From positions 1 through 61,419 of the IMG/VR virus record IMGVR_UViG_3300036881_000024: a stretch of 61,419 nucleotides of DNA; one strand, given 5' to 3'. The translations under genes and the position numbers were made by a program. This document shows, in pieces, positions 181 through 40,832 of this stretch. The DNA is from a virus. The first letter of the stretch is position 1; the number at the start of each line of letters is the position of its first letter. The notes under the pieces were generated by a model that ran no database searches, was not told where the DNA came from, and saw only the letters and a program-made list of their open reading frames with translations.

Positions 181-2522
181 GACCATGATGTGATGCAATT
201 CGTACCAATGCAAAATCCAGAGGGATCGTTCCACTGATTTGTTGCCGGATCGAACGTCGCCCCGATCACATCGCCCGCCCCGTAGAGGGTCACAAGCGTC
301 GGGTTATCGAAGCCGATACTCATACCGCCTGCTGATCCCGCAGAAATGTCTAGGCCACCAGCCGTATCGGTTCTGAAAGACGAATACGAGTGTGCGCCGG
401 GACTGAAGTCTCCAAGTTTCAACATCGATGTGCCATAGCCGATGGTTGGGACTCCATCAAACGCAGGGCTGAGCGCAAATACCGGGGAGCCTGTTCCTCG
501 CGGGGCATTTTCCGGAATGTAGACCGAACCGACTTCAATGCCAGAAGTTCCATTGCCCGCGAAGCTGCGAACGTTGTCGGCTGTTGCCGGGGCAATCTCC
601 ACCGACGTGATCGTTCCCGTGGTTGTAGCGTTGAGGGCGCAGAATCCGGTCACTCCTGATTCCACCGCTACAGAAGCGGCAGTGAACGTCAGCCCGGCGT
701 CTACCGTGCCTGCAGCACAGGTTGTGAGGTTAGCGAAGCCCCAGAGGGTTCCACTGGCTGTTGTCAATTTAAGGGCTGCGAAGTTGTATCCCGCCGCCTT
801 CACATTGGCGGTTAAATCGTAATAGCCGCTTGGCAACACGGTGTTAGCGGGGATCGGAAGCCCCTGTGCGGTGCTGGAACTTATGACCGAATGCGCCGTG
901 TTCGCAGTGGAAGGCACTGCAAGTGCCACCAGCGATCCATCTGCCGTGGCATTCGTGATCGTTGTTGCGGTGGCTGACCAGACGCCGGAAACGCCATCGA
1001 CTGCCGGCACGGGGCACGATGCGGTGTATCCATTCGGCGCGTCGATGTAGGTGTTTGAAATCAGGTTGCACACCGTCTGATATATTTGCGGCACCCTCAA
1101 CACCGTTGCTCCGCCGCCGGTAATCAAGTAGTTCAAGTCACCATGGTAAGTGAAGTTATTTGGTCCCAGAACCGCATCGGAGCCGCCGCTTACGTGAATG
1201 TCGGCACCCATCACGTTCTGATAGAACGTTGTGTTGTTCACGACAGTGTTTGTTGCTGGATTCAGAATTCCCACGCCATCCGATACTTCATTCGCCGTCA
1301 AAATGTAACCCGCGTTGCCAACGGTTGAATCGTATAGAGCGGTTTGCTGCCCCGCGATGGCAATAGTGTTGCCCGATCCAGGCACGGAAATATAGGTTGC
1401 GGCCCCGTCCGATCCGGTAACGATGTTGGTCAGAATTGCCCCGATGGAGTTCTGCCCAACAAAGATTCCGTAATAAGCATCCTGGCCGAGAACGCACCCA
1501 TCGATCTTAGCAAGCCGAGTCAGGCTTGTTCCTGTCCCGATCTGGATTCCCATCGCTACTGCCTGCATCGAGCAGTTGGTAATTGATGGCGAATCCATCC
1601 CGCCTGTAAGCTGCATCCCAACAGAAAGGGAATCAAAATTGAGATTGTGAAAGTGCGTCTGGTCGGTGTCGTAATCGACCGTTAATCCAACCTGTGAGCC
1701 GGTCCAGTTATTCGATCCGGTGAAATAAAGATCGTGAACGTAGACCCCGCCAAGCCGTGAAGGGGGAGAGGGCGCTGGATTCCCAACAGCCAACCCAGGG
1801 CCGTTTGTGCTCGTGACGGTGATTTTAGTTCCAGTGACTCCCGTTTGGCACCCACCGCCGCAACCGCCATCCGTGCCATAAGCGAACGTACCATCAAGCG
1901 TGATCCCTGGCGTTGAGATGCGAGGAGCGGTTGAGACAGAATAGGCAGACGGCGCTAGCGTTACCGTGCCGCCGTGAGTTGTAGCTGCTCGATCAATGAG
2001 GGACTGAATTCCCGCTGTGCCATCGCTGCTCGTGTATGGAGTTGTTTCTGTACCGATTGTAGTACTGGATTCGGAAAGGTCGTAACCGGAGAGTGTCAAT
2101 GTGAACGGCGTGATGTCCTGGCCGTCGACGCAGGTTCCGAGAGGACACCCTCCGCCACCACTGCCGACCGGATACAGCCCCGTGAACGTCACCGGAGATG
2201 GATAGGTATTTGGAGCAATTCCCCCACTCAACACCACGTCGTAGCCCTGATTGATGGCCGCATAGATGGGTGGAATGGAGCCGTTCGTGTTCGCGATGAA
2301 AGGGCTCTGCGGGGTCGTAGTGGCGAGGGTGGTGGTGCCCGTCAAATAGACGGTGACGAGACAAGAGGGGATCACGCCTTGCAGATAATTCGTCGAGACC
2401 AACCCGGAAGTCTTGGCTTGAACGCCCGCCTGAGTGCAAACATAGATAGGAAGAACGGCGGTTTGAGCGTGCGCCGCGAAGGAACCCGCCAAAAGCAAAA
2501 GCGACAAAATCCGTTTCAGCAT
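1..2522 (-). CDS. Tail-fibre / beta-helix surface protein with signal peptide, C-terminus cut by window edge
   Basis: The minus-strand frame is open from position 2522 to the left edge (840 codons) with no stop, so the C-terminus lies outside the window. The ATG at 2522 is preferred because GAGG lies 6 nt before it; an in-frame ATG at 2534 is possible. The protein starts MLKRILSLLLLAGSFAAHAQ, a clear Sec signal peptide ending AHA-Q. The body is Ser/Thr/Gly/Asn-rich and has repeated short hydrophobic strands typical of a right-handed beta-helix of the pectate-lyase type used in phage tail spikes. The last ~60 residues (GNITGIDAGG onward) are nearly identical to a module in the giant fibre protein at the right edge. 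Family role in host-surface binding is inferred; exact substrate unknown. Confidence 0.75.
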   Translation of the reverse strand, partial: MLKRILSLLLLAGSFAAHAQTAVLPIYVCTQAGVQAKTSGLVSTNYLQGVIPSCLVTVYLTGTTTLATTTPQSPFIANTNGSIPPIYAAINQGYDVVLSGGIAPNTYPSPVTFTGLYPVGSGGGGCPLGTCVDGQDITPFTLTLSGYDLSESSTTIGTETTPYTSSDGTAGIQSLIDRAATTHGGTVTLAPSAYSVSTAPRISTPGITLDGTFAYGTDGGCGGGCQTGVTGTKITVTSTNGPGLAVGNPAPSPPSRLGGVYVHDLYFTGSNNWTGSQVGLTVDYDTDQTHFHNLNFDSLSVGMQLTGGMDSPSITNCSMQAVAMGIQIGTGTSLTRLAKIDGCVLGQDAYYGIFVGQNSIGAILTNIVTGSDGAATYISVPGSGNTIAIAGQQTALYDSTVGNAGYILTANEVSDGVGILNPATNTVVNNTTFYQNVMGADIHVSGGSDAVLGPNNFTYHGDLNYLITGGGATVLRVPQIYQTVCNLISNTYIDAPNGYTASCPVPAVDGVSGVWSATATTITNATADGSLVALAVPSTANTAHSVISSSTAQGLPIPANTVLPSGYYDLTANVKAAGYNFAALKLTTASGTLWGFANLTTCAAGTVDAGLTFTAASVAVESGVTGFCALNATTTGTITSVEIAPATADNVRSFAGNGTSGIEVGSVYIPENAPRGTGSPVFALSPAFDGVPTIGYGTSMLKLGDFSPGAHSYSSFRTDTAGGLDISAGSAGGMSIGFDNPTLVTLYGAGDVIGATFDPATNQWNDPSGFCIGTNCITSWSSGNITGIDAGGTPVTPTVGVVNFTGTSPIVATPTGNTIDFSCPTCGVSGGGTTVTVNGG

Positions 2523-2632
2523 CAAGAGCCTCATATCGAGGCCGTTCGCGGGTGGGGCAAGTCCAACAGGAGATTACGAATTTAGCCTACACCCGAACTG
2601 AAATTTTCTCTACTACTTTGAGGAATCAGCGG

Positions 2633-2638
2633 TATAAT
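2633..2638 (+). promoter_or_regulatory. -10 box TATAAT of a probable leaderless gene
   Basis: A perfect TATAAT lies 7 nt before the ATG at 2646, so the expected transcription start falls on or next to the start codon. No convincing -35 box is seen 16-18 nt upstream and no Shine-Dalgarno sequence fits between. Confidence 0.5.
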
Positions 2639-2645
2639 TCGCGCT

Positions 2646-3185
2646 ATGGATACGAATGTCATCACCTCAGAGCCACCCGCGCAAACCCCGAAGAAATCAC
2701 AAACCAAGAAGCACAAGATGAGCGCAGCCGGTCGTAAAGCCCTCTCCGCCGCTTCAAAAGCACGTTGGGCAGCGAAGAAAGCCACTCCTATACCTGACGT
2801 TGCGACAGTCGCTCCCGTCCCAGTTCCTATCCCTCCTTCGCCGGCCGTTCTCAAACTTCAGGAGCAGGTTGTCGAACTTGTCTCACAACGCAGCGCAGCC
2901 CGCGCACGGCTCTCCGAGGCTCATGCGGGCTACTTGCTTGCTCAGAGCACGTTTCAGGCTGCCGAAGCCAACGTGAAAGCCGCAGAACAGGATGCTCAGT
3001 ATCTCCTTGGACTGATCGCGCAACTAGAGAATCGGACACCTGTCATATCCGTCACCCAAAGTTCCCCCGTGCTCCAGATGCCGAGTTCGCTGGCCGGAGT
3101 GTCATCGGAACCGGCTCAGCCCCGGCAAATTTACGCTATGGCATCGGCGGACGATCTTAAGCGAGAGATGCGCGGGATGATGTAG
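2646..3185 (+). CDS. Lys/Ala-rich protein with coiled coil, isolated on the plus strand
   Basis: A 179-residue protein of unknown function, the only plus-strand gene among minus-strand virion genes here. Residues 16-45 are very basic (KKSQTKKHKMSAAGRKAL and on through KARWAAKK), which suggests nucleic-acid binding. A Pro-rich linker follows, then a ~70-residue Ala/Glu/Gln-rich helix (about 68-130) with heptad character. The C-terminus overlaps the end of the convergent gene at 3157 by 29 bases. A TATAAT sits immediately before the ATG, so the mRNA may be leaderless. Independent expression from its own promoter resembles a phage accessory (moron-type) gene; that role is inferred. Confidence 0.6.
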   Translation: MDTNVITSEPPAQTPKKSQTKKHKMSAAGRKALSAASKARWAAKKATPIPDVATVAPVPVPIPPSPAVLKLQEQVVELVSQRSAARARLSEAHAGYLLAQSTFQAAEANVKAAEQDAQYLLGLIAQLENRTPVISVTQSSPVLQMPSSLAGVSSEPAQPRQIYAMASADDLKREMRGMM

Positions 3186-4080
3186 TCGGGGCGAACCCCA
3201 ACTCCGCACTCGGCTCCAGACCACGCGGACAGCACGATCTAAACGGGCAGGGATTCGTCCTCTGGAAGCATTGGCTGAATTGCGGCTCCGGGGGCTCCGT
3301 CGTCCCGGCAATGCGGCTCAGCTTAGATTCCGCGAGATGCAATATTGCATTAAAGTTTTCCGGCACATCGACGTGGTGGATCAGCACCACTTCCGGCAGT
3401 AAGCCGTCTTCCACGAGTTGATCCAGCCATTGTTCCCTTGTGAACCGCGATTCGTGCTGAAACACCGGCTCCCACGCACCGTCAAAGCCTGTCCCATCCC
3501 GCTTGCGGAACCTTAACTGCTTTGATACCGGGTGAGTCCAGCCCTTTACGAGCGGGCCATGCCGCCGCCCATTCCGTTCCTGCCCCAAAACCACTACCAC
3601 GAGGTCCATCGGAACGCCATAAATTGCTGATTCCAGAGTCCTCCAGTCATGCTCGGCTTCGAGTTGGCGGTAAATGTTCCACGTGGAACACAGAACAACC
3701 CTCCGTAGATGGCTCTCAGAGGGGTCTAGGAAGGCTGATGGGCTCCAGACATGGTTTCCTACCTTAATCGGCTCCGAGCGCTTCCACGGGCCTCCAGTGC
3801 GCAGCAAATAGACCACAAACGAAGCTATCCCGGCCAGATGTTCGGCCTGCCCCAACAAATCCTCTTGGTTCGAGTCGATGCCCCGGCTGGTAGCAATTTC
3901 CATCAAAGCATCGGAGGCCGCATCGCCGGGGTCTTTCCCTGTGCTATCTGTCAGGCCAGCTTCGACGGCGCTGTACAGGGCTTCGCTGGGCGTGAGCGCG
4001 GGAACCTGCCACCGCTCGAAGTAGTAGGCGGCTCGGCGGCAGTGGTCGTCGTCAGCGAGGATGCGTGGCGTACCATTCAT
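3157..4080 (-). CDS. Possible PD-(D/E)XK / Cas4-like protein with C-terminal Cys cluster
   Basis: About 307 residues from the ATG at 4080, which has AGGA 6 nt upstream; a longer TTG start at 4095 would overlap the upstream gene by 44 bases. An N-terminal HCRRAAYYFERW and a C-terminal QCFQRTNPCPFRSCCPRG pattern resemble phage RecB/Cas4-type nucleases, which carry one N-terminal Cys and a C-terminal Cys cluster. Between them GVPMDLVVVV could correspond to the Gly-x-x-x-Asp motif, but a clear E-x-K motif is not seen, so the catalytic core is doubtful. It is the last gene of the minus-strand virion block, after the internal virion proteins. It could equally be a structural or regulatory protein. 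Confidence 0.5.
   Translation of the reverse strand: MNGTPRILADDDHCRRAAYYFERWQVPALTPSEALYSAVEAGLTDSTGKDPGDAASDALMEIATSRGIDSNQEDLLGQAEHLAGIASFVVYLLRTGGPWKRSEPIKVGNHVWSPSAFLDPSESHLRRVVLCSTWNIYRQLEAEHDWRTLESAIYGVPMDLVVVVLGQERNGRRHGPLVKGWTHPVSKQLRFRKRDGTGFDGAWEPVFQHESRFTREQWLDQLVEDGLLPEVVLIHHVDVPENFNAILHLAESKLSRIAGTTEPPEPQFSQCFQRTNPCPFRSCCPRGLEPSAELGFAPTTSSRASLA
3337..3350 (+). promoter_or_regulatory. Dispersed palindrome copy 1
   Basis: ATGCAATATTGCAT, a perfect 14-bp palindrome matching the family TGC-R-ATATT-R-CA. It lies inside the coding region of the gene at 3157. Confidence 0.4.
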
Positions 4081-36394: not shown

Positions 36395-36730
36395 CTATGA
36401 AGGCAGAAACGTCACACCCAGGACCGCCAGCACGTCATCGATCGCAGTACCGGCGTGCACCATCTTCGCGGTGTAGCGCAGCAGCATCCAGCCGCCTTTC
36501 TGCAGGGCGTTGTACTTGTCCAAATCCGAGGCGAATCTGCCGTTGATCCGATGGACACTTGACTCGATCTCCACAGCAAGTTTCCGCTCCGGCCAGGCGA
36601 AGTCTATCCGCCACTTTCGGGTAGGGTGAAACAGGTACTCTCGCTCCGGCCTCAGCTTGTAGATGCGGCAGTGCAACGAAAATTCTTCCTCACCGGCACT
36701 ACTCGGCCTTGGGAGGGACTGGCTTACCAT
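36395..36730 (-). CDS. DUF559/Vsr-fold endonuclease-like protein
   Basis: About 111 residues from ATG 36730 (MVSQSLPRPSSAGEEEFSLH), with AGGTGA 6 nt upstream; a longer frame to 36886 overlaps the HNH gene. The core HPTRKWRIDFAWPERKLAVE, then FASDLDKYNALQKGGWMLLR, matches small phage PD-(D/E)XK/Vsr-fold nucleases (D in RIDFAWP, E in VEIE, and D-x-x-K-Y-N-x-L). In phages these act in DNA repair, recombination or resolution. The start overlaps the HNH gene stop by 32 bases. Confidence 0.65.
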   Translation of the reverse strand: MVSQSLPRPSSAGEEEFSLHCRIYKLRPEREYLFHPTRKWRIDFAWPERKLAVEIESSVHRINGRFASDLDKYNALQKGGWMLLRYTAKMVHAGTAIDDVLAVLGVTFLPS

Positions 36731-37013
36731 GCAATTCACCTGAATGTTCCTTCCAATGGCACGCGGCGCACAGCAGACGGCAATTATCAGCCACGTCTGA
36801 GCCTCCAGCGCCCCGGCTGATGATGTGGGCCAGATGCCCGGACGCCCAACTGCACGGACGCCCACACTCGCGGCACTTCCACTCATCGCGGGTGAATACT
36901 TCCCGGCGCAGAGCCTCCAGGGGCTTTCCTTTGAGCCTGATTCTGCCGAGCTTGCCTGGTACTCCGCTGCGGATGGTCAAGGACGCCACCCAAGAGACCA
37001 ATGAACGACGCAA
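36699..37013 (-). CDS. HNH endonuclease
   Basis: Up to 104 residues (start is a TTG at 37013; GTG at 36989 is possible). The HNH core is EVFTRDEWKCRECGRPCSWA, then GHLAHIISRGAGGSDVADNC, RLLCAACHWKEH, with the two CxxC/C-x-x-C zinc knuckles and the H-x-x-x-x-GG-x-x-x-x-N pattern. It overlaps the nuclease gene downstream. It may be a homing nuclease or a phage DNA-processing enzyme. No splicing element is nearby. Confidence 0.7.
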   Translation of the reverse strand: MRRSLVSWVASLTIRSGVPGKLGRIRLKGKPLEALRREVFTRDEWKCRECGRPCSWASGHLAHIISRGAGGSDVADNCRLLCAACHWKEHSGELHGKPVPPKAE

Positions 37014-38051: not shown

Positions 38052-38110
38052 TGAATATCCGCCTCTCCCTGCTTTCCATCGGCCAGTTTTCGGTCGCGCT
38101 TGGGCTTCAT
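38048..38110 (-). CDS. 20-residue basic micro-ORF between the helicase and the next gene
   Basis: MKPKRDRKLADGKQGEADIQ. It has an ATGA overlap with the helicase stop and a GTGA overlap with the following gene. It may only serve to pass ribosomes between the two genes. Confidence 0.4.
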   Translation of the reverse strand: MKPKRDRKLADGKQGEADIQ

Positions 38111-40626
38111 ACTTTTGTCCTCATCATGGAACGCTTGGCATCGATAGCCGCGCTCACCTGCCCTTTGGTCGCCCCCGGAGGCACCGCGAGTCTCAGGATG
38201 CGTGCCAGAGATAATTGCTTTTCTGTCGGCTTGTCGCCGTGCCATCTCGCATCGCGCTTCACCAGCCCGGTAAATTCCTTCGGCACCATCGCGTCTGCGA
38301 TGTTAAATGCGCCAGGTAAATTCTGTGCTGAGTATTCGATCTGCGCTCCATTCAGGTTTCCGCGTATCTGGTACTCATCGCGCAAGTCTTTCGTGATTGT
38401 GACCACGCCGCGATTGACCACCAGCATGTACCCGTCGCCGTTCTTCCGCCAGCCGAATTCAGATAGCTTCGAGACTTCAGGCGGGTAGTGAACCTGAAAC
38501 AGCGCAATGTCTTCTGCTATCGCGTCCAGCTTTGACAGGCTCAGAACTTCGCTCAGGTCGGCGCTTGGAAATTCTTTGGCCACCTTCTCAAACTGTTCCT
38601 TCGCCCGGATAACTGACTTGCCCTTAAGGTCGAGATTCGTCGGCAGTCCCAACAGACTCGGCATCGTTACCAGCGAGTGCTTTGAAGTGTTGTCTACCAC
38701 ATCCATAATCAGCGTGTACTCTTTGCCGTCATCGATCCGGGTTCCCCGTCCGATCATCTGCGTAAAGAGAAGCTGAGACTTCGTGGGCTTTGCCAGCACG
38801 ATGCACTTGATTCCCGGGTCGTCGTATCCCTCTGTCAACACTGCACAGTTACACAGGACCGTCAGGGCGTTCTCTCTGTGCCGCTGGAGCTTGCGTGCGC
38901 GCTCGGGATCGTCTCCCCAAACTGCCTCGGCTTCAATGGAGCACTGTTTGAACGCCGCCGCGAGGTCGAGGGCGTGCTGAATATCCACAGTGAATACGAC
39001 CGTCTTAAATCCATAGGCGACCCGCATCCATTCCTTAACGATGATTGCGTTGCGCTCTACCGTGTTCACTGCATCCGATAGTTCATCCTCGGCAAAGTCA
39101 CCGGCCCGTGAGTGAACCTTGTCGAGATTCGTTTTGGTTGATACGCGGACGCCGCGAAGATCAACGAGCCACCCGGACTCGATGCCCGAGCGGATACCCA
39201 TGTCGAATACGATCTCATCGAAGAACTGCCTGAGCCCCTGTCCGTCGGAACGGTTGGGCGTTGCCGTCAGGCCCAGCGAAAGTATCTGCGACTCTCCCGG
39301 TCTAAGGAGGCCGAAGTATTCAAGCACGTTCCGCCACTGAGCGCCGGTCGCATGGTGACAGTTGTGAACTAGGAAGCCGTTGGCGAAATAGGTGTGAGTT
39401 TCTTCGACTTCGAGATTGTAGACATAATCACATTCAGGACGCCCGGAAGATTGTTGAGGATTTGGTCGTTCCTGAACCTCAATACCGTCCACCCTAACCC
39501 ACTCAGAAGCGCATCCTTCTTCCGGTCCTGTTCCTGTCGAGATAGCATCCCGTGAGAAGTCCCTTCGGCCTCCACACCTACCTTGAGGTCGCGGTTCCCA
39601 ACATCCAGCTTGTAGACGGTCGGATAGCCACTGCCACGGCCTTTGCCAGTAAGAACGCCAACCTCCGTTTCCCACCCCAACGCTGCTGCGAGCATCTGCT
39701 GCGGTTTCGTGAGTCCCGTCCCGTTCCCCCCGCGCACTGAGGGCTTGTGTCCCATCGCCCTCAGTGTTGCGGTCATCTTTTCTTTCGATCCCGCTCTCCG
39801 CATGGGATTGTTCGTCTTCATACGAGCCGAACAGTGCTCTAAGTTGGTCCGCGTCATGCGCTCCGAACTGAGACGTGCCACATATGCTACCTTGCAAGAA
39901 TCCGAGCAGTAAGCCCTGCCCTTTTTCGCGTATAGCATCATGCGGTCGTGTGATTGGGTGCAGAGGTCCACGTCTCCAGTGCAGTGAGAACAAGAGACGA
40001 TCATCGCTGGTGAGGTCGATTGCATTGATCCATCCTTTCTGTGTATAAATCGGATGTTCCGCCGTGCAAGTGAAGTTGCCGTCTGCGGTTTTCACCAGCA
40101 CTAAATATTCAGGCATCGGGTTCCTGTATATTCGAGAAACCCCGCGTTTTTCAATGGTCCCATTGGACTCATCATACGACAATACAGCTTCCCCAATGCG
40201 GATAGTTTCTATAGGTTTCCCGTCGATCAATGTGCCTGCTGGGAAGCACTCATCAGAGACAACGCAATCGAAGTCGTCGCGGTGAAACTTCAATATGCGC
40301 TTCGATCTTGCCCGTCCGAGCGTGGGCACGGACGCCACGATGAATGTGTCCATCGGGCTTGAGGTTCGCTCCGCCTTTTCGACGCCAACCATCAGGTCCG
40401 GGTTCCAGCGTTGCAGTTTATCCGCCGCCTGGTTAGCCAACTCCTCGCGGTGTACAAGAACCATGATCTTCTTGCGGAAGTTCATCTGGTCCCTGAGCGC
40501 CGCGAAGAGAACTGCTTTGCCGAGTCCGGTAGCCAACACGCCAAGCTGCCGCGTAATTCCCGCATCATATCTCTCTCTAACTCGCTGGAAGAATTCGCGC
40601 TGGTAGTCCCGAAGTTGAAGGGTCAT
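38107..40626 (-). CDS. Superfamily 2 helicase precursor containing an intein
   Basis: About 839 residues from ATG 40626 (MTLQLRDYQREFFQRVRERY) with AGGA 5 nt upstream; the frame is open to 40767. Motifs are Q-like LRDYQ, motif I LATGLGKAVLF, motif II split as SDE/CHH, motif III LGLTATPNRSDG and motif VI TQMIGRGTRID. The fold is the RadD/UvsW/SSL2-like group. Motif I reads GLGKA where GKT/S is expected, so ATP binding may be impaired. Residues 127-422 are an intein. Spliced, the helicase is ~543 residues with an intact DECH box. It works in phage DNA replication or recombination next to a PD-(D/E)XK nuclease and annealing-like protein. Confidence 0.8.
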   Translation of the reverse strand: MTLQLRDYQREFFQRVRERYDAGITRQLGVLATGLGKAVLFAALRDQMNFRKKIMVLVHREELANQAADKLQRWNPDLMVGVEKAERTSSPMDTFIVASVPTLGRARSKRILKFHRDDFDCVVSDECFPAGTLIDGKPIETIRIGEAVLSYDESNGTIEKRGVSRIYRNPMPEYLVLVKTADGNFTCTAEHPIYTQKGWINAIDLTSDDRLLFSLHWRRGPLHPITRPHDAIREKGQGLLLGFLQGSICGTSQFGAHDADQLRALFGSYEDEQSHAESGIERKDDRNTEGDGTQALSARGERDGTHETAADARSSVGVGNGGWRSYWQRPWQWLSDRLQAGCWEPRPQGRCGGRRDFSRDAISTGTGPEEGCASEWVRVDGIEVQERPNPQQSSGRPECDYVYNLEVEETHTYFANGFLVHNCHHATGAQWRNVLEYFGLLRPGESQILSLGLTATPNRSDGQGLRQFFDEIVFDMGIRSGIESGWLVDLRGVRVSTKTNLDKVHSRAGDFAEDELSDAVNTVERNAIIVKEWMRVAYGFKTVVFTVDIQHALDLAAAFKQCSIEAEAVWGDDPERARKLQRHRENALTVLCNCAVLTEGYDDPGIKCIVLAKPTKSQLLFTQMIGRGTRIDDGKEYTLIMDVVDNTSKHSLVTMPSLLGLPTNLDLKGKSVIRAKEQFEKVAKEFPSADLSEVLSLSKLDAIAEDIALFQVHYPPEVSKLSEFGWRKNGDGYMLVVNRGVVTITKDLRDEYQIRGNLNGAQIEYSAQNLPGAFNIADAMVPKEFTGLVKRDARWHGDKPTEKQLSLARILRLAVPPGATKGQVSAAIDAKRSMMRTKV
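39361..40248 (-). mobile_element. Intein in helicase motif II, hosting a nested endonuclease gene
   Basis: Codes 296 residues from Cys (CFPAGTLIDGKPIETIRIGE) to Asn, with Cys+1 (CHHATGA). Block A is CFPAGTLI; block B is FTCTAEHPIYTQKGW with T-x-x-H; block F/G is YVYNLEVEETHTYFANGFLV followed by HN. Insertion between Glu and Cys of the DECH box is a typical intein site. The stretch between blocks B and F is polar low-complexity sequence with no endonuclease motif in this frame, because it overlaps the separate gene at 39369 in another frame. Confidence 0.85.
39369..40025 (-). CDS. Vsr/EDxHD-like homing endonuclease nested out of frame in the helicase intein
   Basis: A 218-residue protein from ATG 40025 with AAAGGA 7 nt upstream, in a frame different from the helicase on the same strand. 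An N-terminal zinc-finger-like part (CSHCTGDVDLC, CSDSCKVAYVA) is followed by a basic linker. A C-terminal Vsr/DUF559-like nuclease follows: KLDVGNRDLKVGVEAEGTSH, then RQEQDRKKDALLSGLGWTVL, RFRNDQILNN. Acidic Glu/Glu, His and Asp residues line up with the EDxHD family of homing endonucleases. It ends 8 bases before the intein end, so it is wholly inside the intein. It likely promotes intein or gene spread to intein-free relatives. Confidence 0.75.
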   Translation of the reverse strand: MQSTSPAMIVSCSHCTGDVDLCTQSHDRMMLYAKKGRAYCSDSCKVAYVARLSSERMTRTNLEHCSARMKTNNPMRRAGSKEKMTATLRAMGHKPSVRGGNGTGLTKPQQMLAAALGWETEVGVLTGKGRGSGYPTVYKLDVGNRDLKVGVEAEGTSHGMLSRQEQDRKKDALLSGLGWTVLRFRNDQILNNLPGVLNVIMSTISKSKKLTPISPTAS

Positions 40627-40832
40627 GATTTCCTGAATGAATCCTGCTCTGTGCAAGTGGCCCAATGCGCGACCGCCGCATCCCCGCCGCGCTGCATCGG
40701 GTTCATCGGAATGTTCTTGCCGTTGGGAGTCTCCCACCATTCGATAGACTCCCCGCAGCCCTTGCACTCGGCATGGTCCTTGAACTTGTAGCCGCGCGCC
40801 GTCATTTCGTCTAGCGTTTTCGGAAATGCCAT
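40623..40832 (-). CDS. Small zinc-ribbon protein
   Basis: Sixty-nine residues from ATG 40832 with GGGAG upstream (frame open to 40859). MAFPKTLDEMTARGYKFKDH is followed by ECKGCGESIEWWETPNGKNI and HWATCTEQ, giving CKGC and HW..C ligands. It is coupled to the helicase start (ATGA). Similar small Cys proteins accompany phage helicases; possible DNA binding. Confidence 0.6.
   Translation of the reverse strand: MAFPKTLDEMTARGYKFKDHAECKGCGESIEWWETPNGKNIPMNPMQRGGDAAVAHWATCTEQDSFRKS

Follow-up and report, generated by a model that had tools for sequence, protein, structure and literature searches.

A probable homing intein with a separately encoded endonuclease gene nested in its +1 frame

Fractured genes that combine split inteins with EDxHD nucleases were reportedly described by Dassa and colleagues in 2009. 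In mycobacteriophage DNA methylases, an out-of-frame HNH endonuclease gene is carried within the ShiLan domain and the Pacc40 insertion (Arsenault et al. 2025, PMC11855218). Neither an intein nor an intron was found at these sites; the insertion is predicted to stay in the methylase, and the HNH gene lies in the third frame without a Shine-Dalgarno sequence (PMC11855218). The EDxHD homing endonuclease I-Bth0305I (PDB 3r3p) is carried by a group I intron (Stoddard 2014, PMC3943268). Searches of open-access papers turned up no intein whose nuclease is encoded out of frame, and the arrangement reported here is apparently undescribed, its novelty being provisional.

The window, which is the whole 61,419-nucleotide stretch of virus DNA analyzed here, contains an SF2 (ResIII/RadD-like) DNA helicase gene at 38107 to 40626 on the minus strand (ResIII, 3.2e-21; Helicase_C, 4.8e-6; PHROG 16 DNA helicase, 1.5e-68). 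The open reading frame was listed as 38107 to 40767 from a GTG codon, the likely ATG start lies at 40626, and the frame is open across an intein at 39361 to 40248 (minus strand). By its motifs, profile matches and AlphaFold model, this intein of 888 nt (296 amino acids) is of the class 1 type, with Cys1, a TxxH block, a His-Asn end and Cys+1; it begins with CFPAGT and ends with VHN. Insertion is after the Asp-Glu of the helicase Walker B motif, between DE and CHH, with VVSDE before the intein and CHHATG after it.

Entirely within the bounds of the intein, on the same strand and in the +1 frame relative to the helicase, lies a gene for a putative homing endonuclease of 218 amino acids (39369 to 40025, minus strand), with an N-terminal Cys4 zinc finger, a helical linker and a C-terminal EDxHD/DUF559 domain. 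A Shine-Dalgarno match, AAGGA (40033 to 40037, minus strand), is located 7 nt before its ATG and forms part of the codons for Lys-Gly in the K-G-W motif of intein block B. These codons were considered as a family-wide source of the Shine-Dalgarno sequence; this holds in the window, but elsewhere the starts lie at varied distances, so it is not general. The host-frame stretch that overlaps the nuclease gene (39505 to 39954, minus strand; approximately intein residues 99 to 248) is stop-free, polar and glycine-rich, and predicted to be disordered. Downstream of the helicase, nearby on the same strand, a second DUF559-like protein (36398 to 36886, minus strand) and an HNH nuclease (36702 to 37013, minus strand) are encoded by overlapping open reading frames.

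The initial annotation of this DNA had placed the intein and the nested gene at exactly these coordinates. It had also proposed a complete intein whose own frame encodes no endonuclease, a zinc-finger and EDxHD-type nuclease with its own ribosome-binding site in another frame, and a helicase frame that stays open over the nested gene in a continuous host gene, all of which agreed with the splice motifs, the unbroken helicase frame and profile searches of both frames. The intein frame matched TIGR01443 (C-terminal splicing region, E=2.7e-9), PT-HINT (1.9e-11) and Intein_splicing (2.1e-8), and the nested frame matched Pfam DUF559 (E=2.6e-11). All class 1 splice motifs were found, including Cys1 (CFPAGT...), the block B TxxH motif (TAEH) and a C-terminal VHN followed by Cys, and these were invariant or nearly so across the family alignment. 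In the AlphaFold model of the host-frame intein, residues ~4 to 100 and 250 to 303, most of them at pLDDT values over 90, adopt a HINT fold that matches mini-inteins in the PDB (1mi8, 7cfv). Over the nuclease gene, the spacer was modeled at pLDDT below 50 (model residues 100 to 155 and 157 to 248).

The nested protein is identified as a predicted EDxHD-type nuclease because of its conserved core, its profile match to I-Bth0305I and the fold of its model. Profile matches in the PDB included 3r3p (I-Bth0305I; E=0.0027) and 3hrl (5e-11). The AlphaFold model had a mean pLDDT of 91, and its top PDB fold match was the catalytic domain of I-Bth0305I (3r3p; E=1.7e-3, probability 1.00). An alignment of relatives revealed conservation of the Cys4 finger (C12, C15, C40 and C44) and of the nuclease core (Y138, D141, E152, G155, H158, D167, W179, R183 and N186). 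D141, E152, H158 and D167 were conserved in 37 to 38 of the 38 aligned members, and all four are present in the window copy. The EDxHD/Vsr-like catalytic fold and residues are therefore present in the nested protein, with the exception of position 154, which is Glu in the window copy and Asp in 37 of the 38 aligned sequences; the activity of this copy may therefore be altered.

Searches for the family used the nuclease frame alone as query, and loci were counted when both intein blocks were present. A tblastn search of phage records with the nuclease identified 40 records, all under a gene annotated as helicase, coil protein, P-loop protein or hypothetical protein, and the same layout was found in each of the eight loci fetched from this set. 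Profile scans of IMG/VR and GTDB genomes, followed by uniform re-analysis, yielded 125 loci with both intein blocks, which clustering at 85% identity reduced to 97 representatives. Both intein blocks lay in one continuous open reading frame, and the nuclease was always in the +1 frame, in 125 of 125 loci; since only the nuclease frame was used in the search, this continuity is not an artefact of how the loci were chosen. The presence of both open frames in independent isolates and contigs ruled out a sequencing or assembly error as their source. A chance nested open reading frame was likewise rejected, as 125 loci have relatives (mostly 31 to 53% identical) that share its position and frame. 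The layout is thus real, conserved and widespread, and the single fixed frame is most simply explained by one origin of the composite element.

The element is inserted at the Walker B region of its host genes, which encode SF2 helicases (between DE and CHH), SNF2-type proteins (L044 and L046, between DE and SSILK; L048 and L052 as well) and DnaX-like clamp loader proteins (L051 and L053). Corynebacterium phage phi673, which grows in C. glutamicum, is among the carriers. Contigs bearing the element come from many bacterial phyla and are probably mostly phages or prophages; no plasmid relatives were found. Truncated nuclease copies occurred in L003 and L052. The host open reading frame of L052 (1 to 6453) encodes a methylase/SNF2 helicase fusion of 2151 amino acids, in which the element, with its truncated nuclease, follows DEAH.

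The constraint on the host frame was measured in 96 non-redundant loci, with the expected number of stops obtained by synonymous recoding of every nuclease at the codon usage of the exteins. No host-frame stop was observed in the overlap, as compared with 817.6 expected, while the third frame, which nothing requires to be open, contained 996 stops against 744 expected. Two-fold codons preceding AA, AG or GA ended in T in 0 of 527 cases; elsewhere, they did so in 1220 of 2226 (P=5e-156). Because stops are avoided by synonymous choice, the host frame must be translated and must stay open. This stop avoidance also argues against a group I intron around the nuclease gene, since it suggests that the region is translated rather than spliced from RNA. 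The window overlap on its own contained 0 host-frame stops versus 4.5 expected (P0=0.003). The reverse test in the window only, with host codons randomized, was weak for the nested frame (P0=0.275); proof of selection on that frame therefore rests on the family and not on the window copy.

Substitutions between relatives supplied this proof, by the codon-position analysis that the initial annotation had suggested. In closely related pairs, differences fell at host position 3 in the exteins and intein flanks, and at nested position 3 (host position 1) in the overlap. Across 17 independent pairs, substitutions in the overlap at nested positions 1, 2 and 3 numbered 632, 481 and 1252, respectively. 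Changed codons in the overlap were synonymous in 796 cases and nonsynonymous in 769 when read in the nested frame, and 116 and 1450, respectively, when read in the host frame. These counts show conservation of the nuclease protein but not of the host-frame peptide. Purifying selection on protein thus acts in the nested frame only, and the host frame over the nuclease is constrained merely to avoid stops.

The genetic code offers a rationale for the frame used. In the +1 arrangement, a host-frame stop always requires a nuclease codon ending in T, and every such codon has a synonym ending in C; any protein can therefore be encoded in this frame with the host frame left open. The other frame cannot avoid a host-frame TGA wherever the nuclease has a Met with M, I, T, N or K as the next residue, and such a pair occurs in 85 of the 96 family nucleases. 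The +1 frame may have been favored by its compatibility with any protein, a consideration that rationalizes the frame and does not imply selection for it.

Signals for translation of the nuclease were found in many loci. A Shine-Dalgarno match of at least 5 nt preceded an ATG or GTG start in 20 of 42 loci but in only 43 of 474 control windows (P=2e-9). Such a match is absent from about half of the loci, and initiation may therefore differ among hosts. Each of the 97 representatives has a stop within the element that closes the nested frame; in 83.5% of them, the last upstream stop in this frame lay in the final 100 nt of the N block or further on. Some nested starts directly follow an upstream stop, as in L018. 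Internal initiation is the simplest reading of these sequence features for synthesis of the nuclease.

Comparison with relatives lacking the element, also suggested in the initial annotation, revealed clean empty sites in pairs of relatives elsewhere in the family. Vibrio phage CP-T1 is filled and vB_VchM-138 is empty, and the two are ~96% identical around the site; the junction reads GATGA(G/A), then the insert, then a codon for Cys (filled) or Ala (empty). Further filled and empty pairs were K391 and 234P10, and 104E43.1 and 142E35-1. The empty 234P10 retains the Cys codon, and loss of the element is therefore also possible there. Between K391 and 1.088.O, the element was ~94% identical and both flanks ~78%; this greater likeness of the element indicates lateral movement. 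Over 62 loci, mean identity was 43% for the nuclease, 41% for the HINT domain and 27.5% for the extein, although the higher identity of the nuclease than of the extein could partly reflect stronger constraint. At the level of sequence comparison, the empty sites and the contrast between element and flanks indicate recent mobility, with the case for lateral transfer resting mainly on the Vibrio pairs.

Other elements occupy the same site. Mini-inteins of ~143 to 150 amino acids were found there in K389, K453 and 13VV501A; their intein sequences differ, and an origin of these Vibrio mini-inteins by simple deletion of the element was not supported. The helicase of Vibrio phage 13VV501A (L171, 1152 to 3653) carries two inteins, one at Walker A (GAGK/C...HN/TVVA) and the mini-intein at Walker B. 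In Salmonella phage S16 (L166, 656 to 3382) and Proteus phage PM2 (L167, 659 to 3391), UvsW is fractured at the same Walker B site, and a TnsA-like/NUMOD3 nuclease gene lies between the split intein halves and overlaps both ends. In Xanthomonas phage FoX3 (L168, MT161383), the intein at this helicase site (helicase, 1301 to 3667) contains a LAGLIDADG_2 gene (1732 to 2490; E=9e-22) in the +2 frame; the host frame is continuous and held 0 stops versus 3.15 expected (P0=0.001). FoX3 is an independent case, with another nuclease family and another frame, and suggests a solution that evolved at least twice. KLEP7, a relative of the FoX3 LAGLIDADG, was rejected as a nested case, its nuclease being in frame as in an ordinary intein.

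The EDxHD gene was also found free-standing, just upstream of an intein-free helicase and with its 3′ end overlapping the helicase start, in four loci (L023, identical to L121, 3917 to 4603; L029, 3358 to 3999; L163, 1513 to 2148; and L031). An Rfam scan of three loci without intein blocks, in which the nuclease is free-standing, gave no match. In L031 (4900 to 4930), the helicase frame breaks exactly at the intein site, where CGGA stands between GATGAA and CACCAC in place of the expected three-base codon; this could be a scar of imprecise repair after cleavage or an assembly error. The free-standing nuclease with an intein-free helicase is a possible ancestral or escaped form of the element. 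These arrangements suggest that a free nuclease aimed at Walker B helicase genes joined an intein at that site.

We consider it about 85% probable that the element is a homing intein and that its endonuclease, instead of being an in-frame domain, is the product of a separate gene lying within the intein in the +1 frame. Under this model, ribosomes in the helicase frame would produce one long precursor in which the HINT domain is interrupted by ~150 disordered residues, which would be merely the frame-shifted reading of the nuclease gene. As its intact motifs and fold suggest, the HINT domain would fold around this spacer and excise itself to leave an intact helicase. Other ribosomes would start within the same mRNA at the nested start, as suggested by the Shine-Dalgarno enrichment and the upstream nested-frame stops, and make a free zinc-finger/EDxHD nuclease. 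This nuclease would be expected to cut intein-free Walker B helicase alleles, and repair would then copy in the whole element, with the Cys+1 codon replacing the Ala of the target. It is likely that such elements form a large, previously unrecognized class of mobile inteins, in which an independent endonuclease gene overprints the intein in another frame and the intein frame serves there only as a stop-free disordered spacer.

The initial annotation had offered two readings, one of them a transient intermediate toward a split intein, in which a free-standing nuclease gene has newly invaded an intein and the host gene is about to fracture. The fractured UvsW genes of S16 and PM2, with a nuclease gene between the halves at the same Walker B site, and the free-standing relatives just upstream of intein-free helicases are consistent with such a step. 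However, the nuclease of the fractured cases is of another family, 0 of 125 loci are fractured, and the single +1 frame and the strong selection that holds the host frame open persist across very divergent phages and phyla, making this reading quite improbable. Its second reading, a stable dual-coding element, was borne out, with one modification: protein-level purifying selection is confined to the nested frame. True dual coding, with the nuclease and the spacer peptide both functional and constrained in sequence, would account for the real constraint against stops and for a few host-frame columns that look conserved, such as Q218. Such columns are expected wherever the nuclease itself is conserved, and the large excess of nonsynonymous host-frame changes in a spacer predicted to be disordered renders this reading very improbable indeed.

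If ribosomes shifted out of the intein frame to make the nuclease, fused to the N half of the intein, this would need the fixed +1 relation that was observed, and would fit the half of the loci that lack a strong Shine-Dalgarno sequence. Shifted ribosomes would stop at the end of the nuclease and yield no helicase, however, and nested start codons with Shine-Dalgarno enrichment, late upstream stops and the start of L018 also argue against a fusion, which we regard as unlikely. There is similarly a small chance that the element has decayed, the nested frame being the relic of an inactive nuclease carried along. The truncated copies and E154 of the window copy point in that direction, but the nested proteins are full length, their four core acidic and histidine residues are nearly invariant, and codon-position selection is clear in recent pairs. 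Collectively, these data indicate that the nested-gene intein is a stable dual-frame homing element, rather than a passing stage on the way to a split intein or DNA that encodes two constrained proteins.

The element indicates that a homing nuclease and a splicing domain can share DNA without being fused, with each able to evolve almost unhindered and the host frame paying only through synonymous stop avoidance. Overprinting explains why annotation missed the nuclease in all isolate phages examined, where the gene is labeled helicase, coil protein or hypothetical. The family offers a widespread natural system for the study of the origin and translation of nested genes, and might yield natural inteins able to accommodate long disordered loops where the endonuclease usually sits.

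Several described systems resemble the element in part. With the ShiLan domain it shares an endonuclease gene in a shifted frame, a host frame open throughout, a homing-like distribution and a disordered-looking host-frame product. In contrast to the HNH gene of ShiLan, which has no splicing element, the EDxHD nuclease here lies in the +1 frame within a complete HINT domain, has Shine-Dalgarno signals and is represented by 97 non-redundant members. I-Bth0305I has the same nuclease fold and active-site layout, but the carrier here is an intein. The free-standing EDxHD genes beside helicases (L023/L121, L029, L031 and L163) belong to the same nuclease family, but they lie upstream of a helicase that has no intein. 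Ordinary large inteins likewise combine a cis-splicing HINT domain with a homing nuclease (in-frame LAGLIDADG or HNH) encoded between its halves, whereas here another frame would encode the nuclease as a protein of its own rather than as a domain of the intein. Fractured split-intein genes have a separate homing endonuclease gene between the intein halves, and those of S16 and PM2 share the Walker B site; in these, however, host gene and intein are divided between two genes and splice in trans, whereas here one open reading frame, continuous in 125 of 125 loci, would splice in cis. The element is thus best described as a variant between in-frame inteins and fractured split inteins, and represents a third arrangement besides these two.
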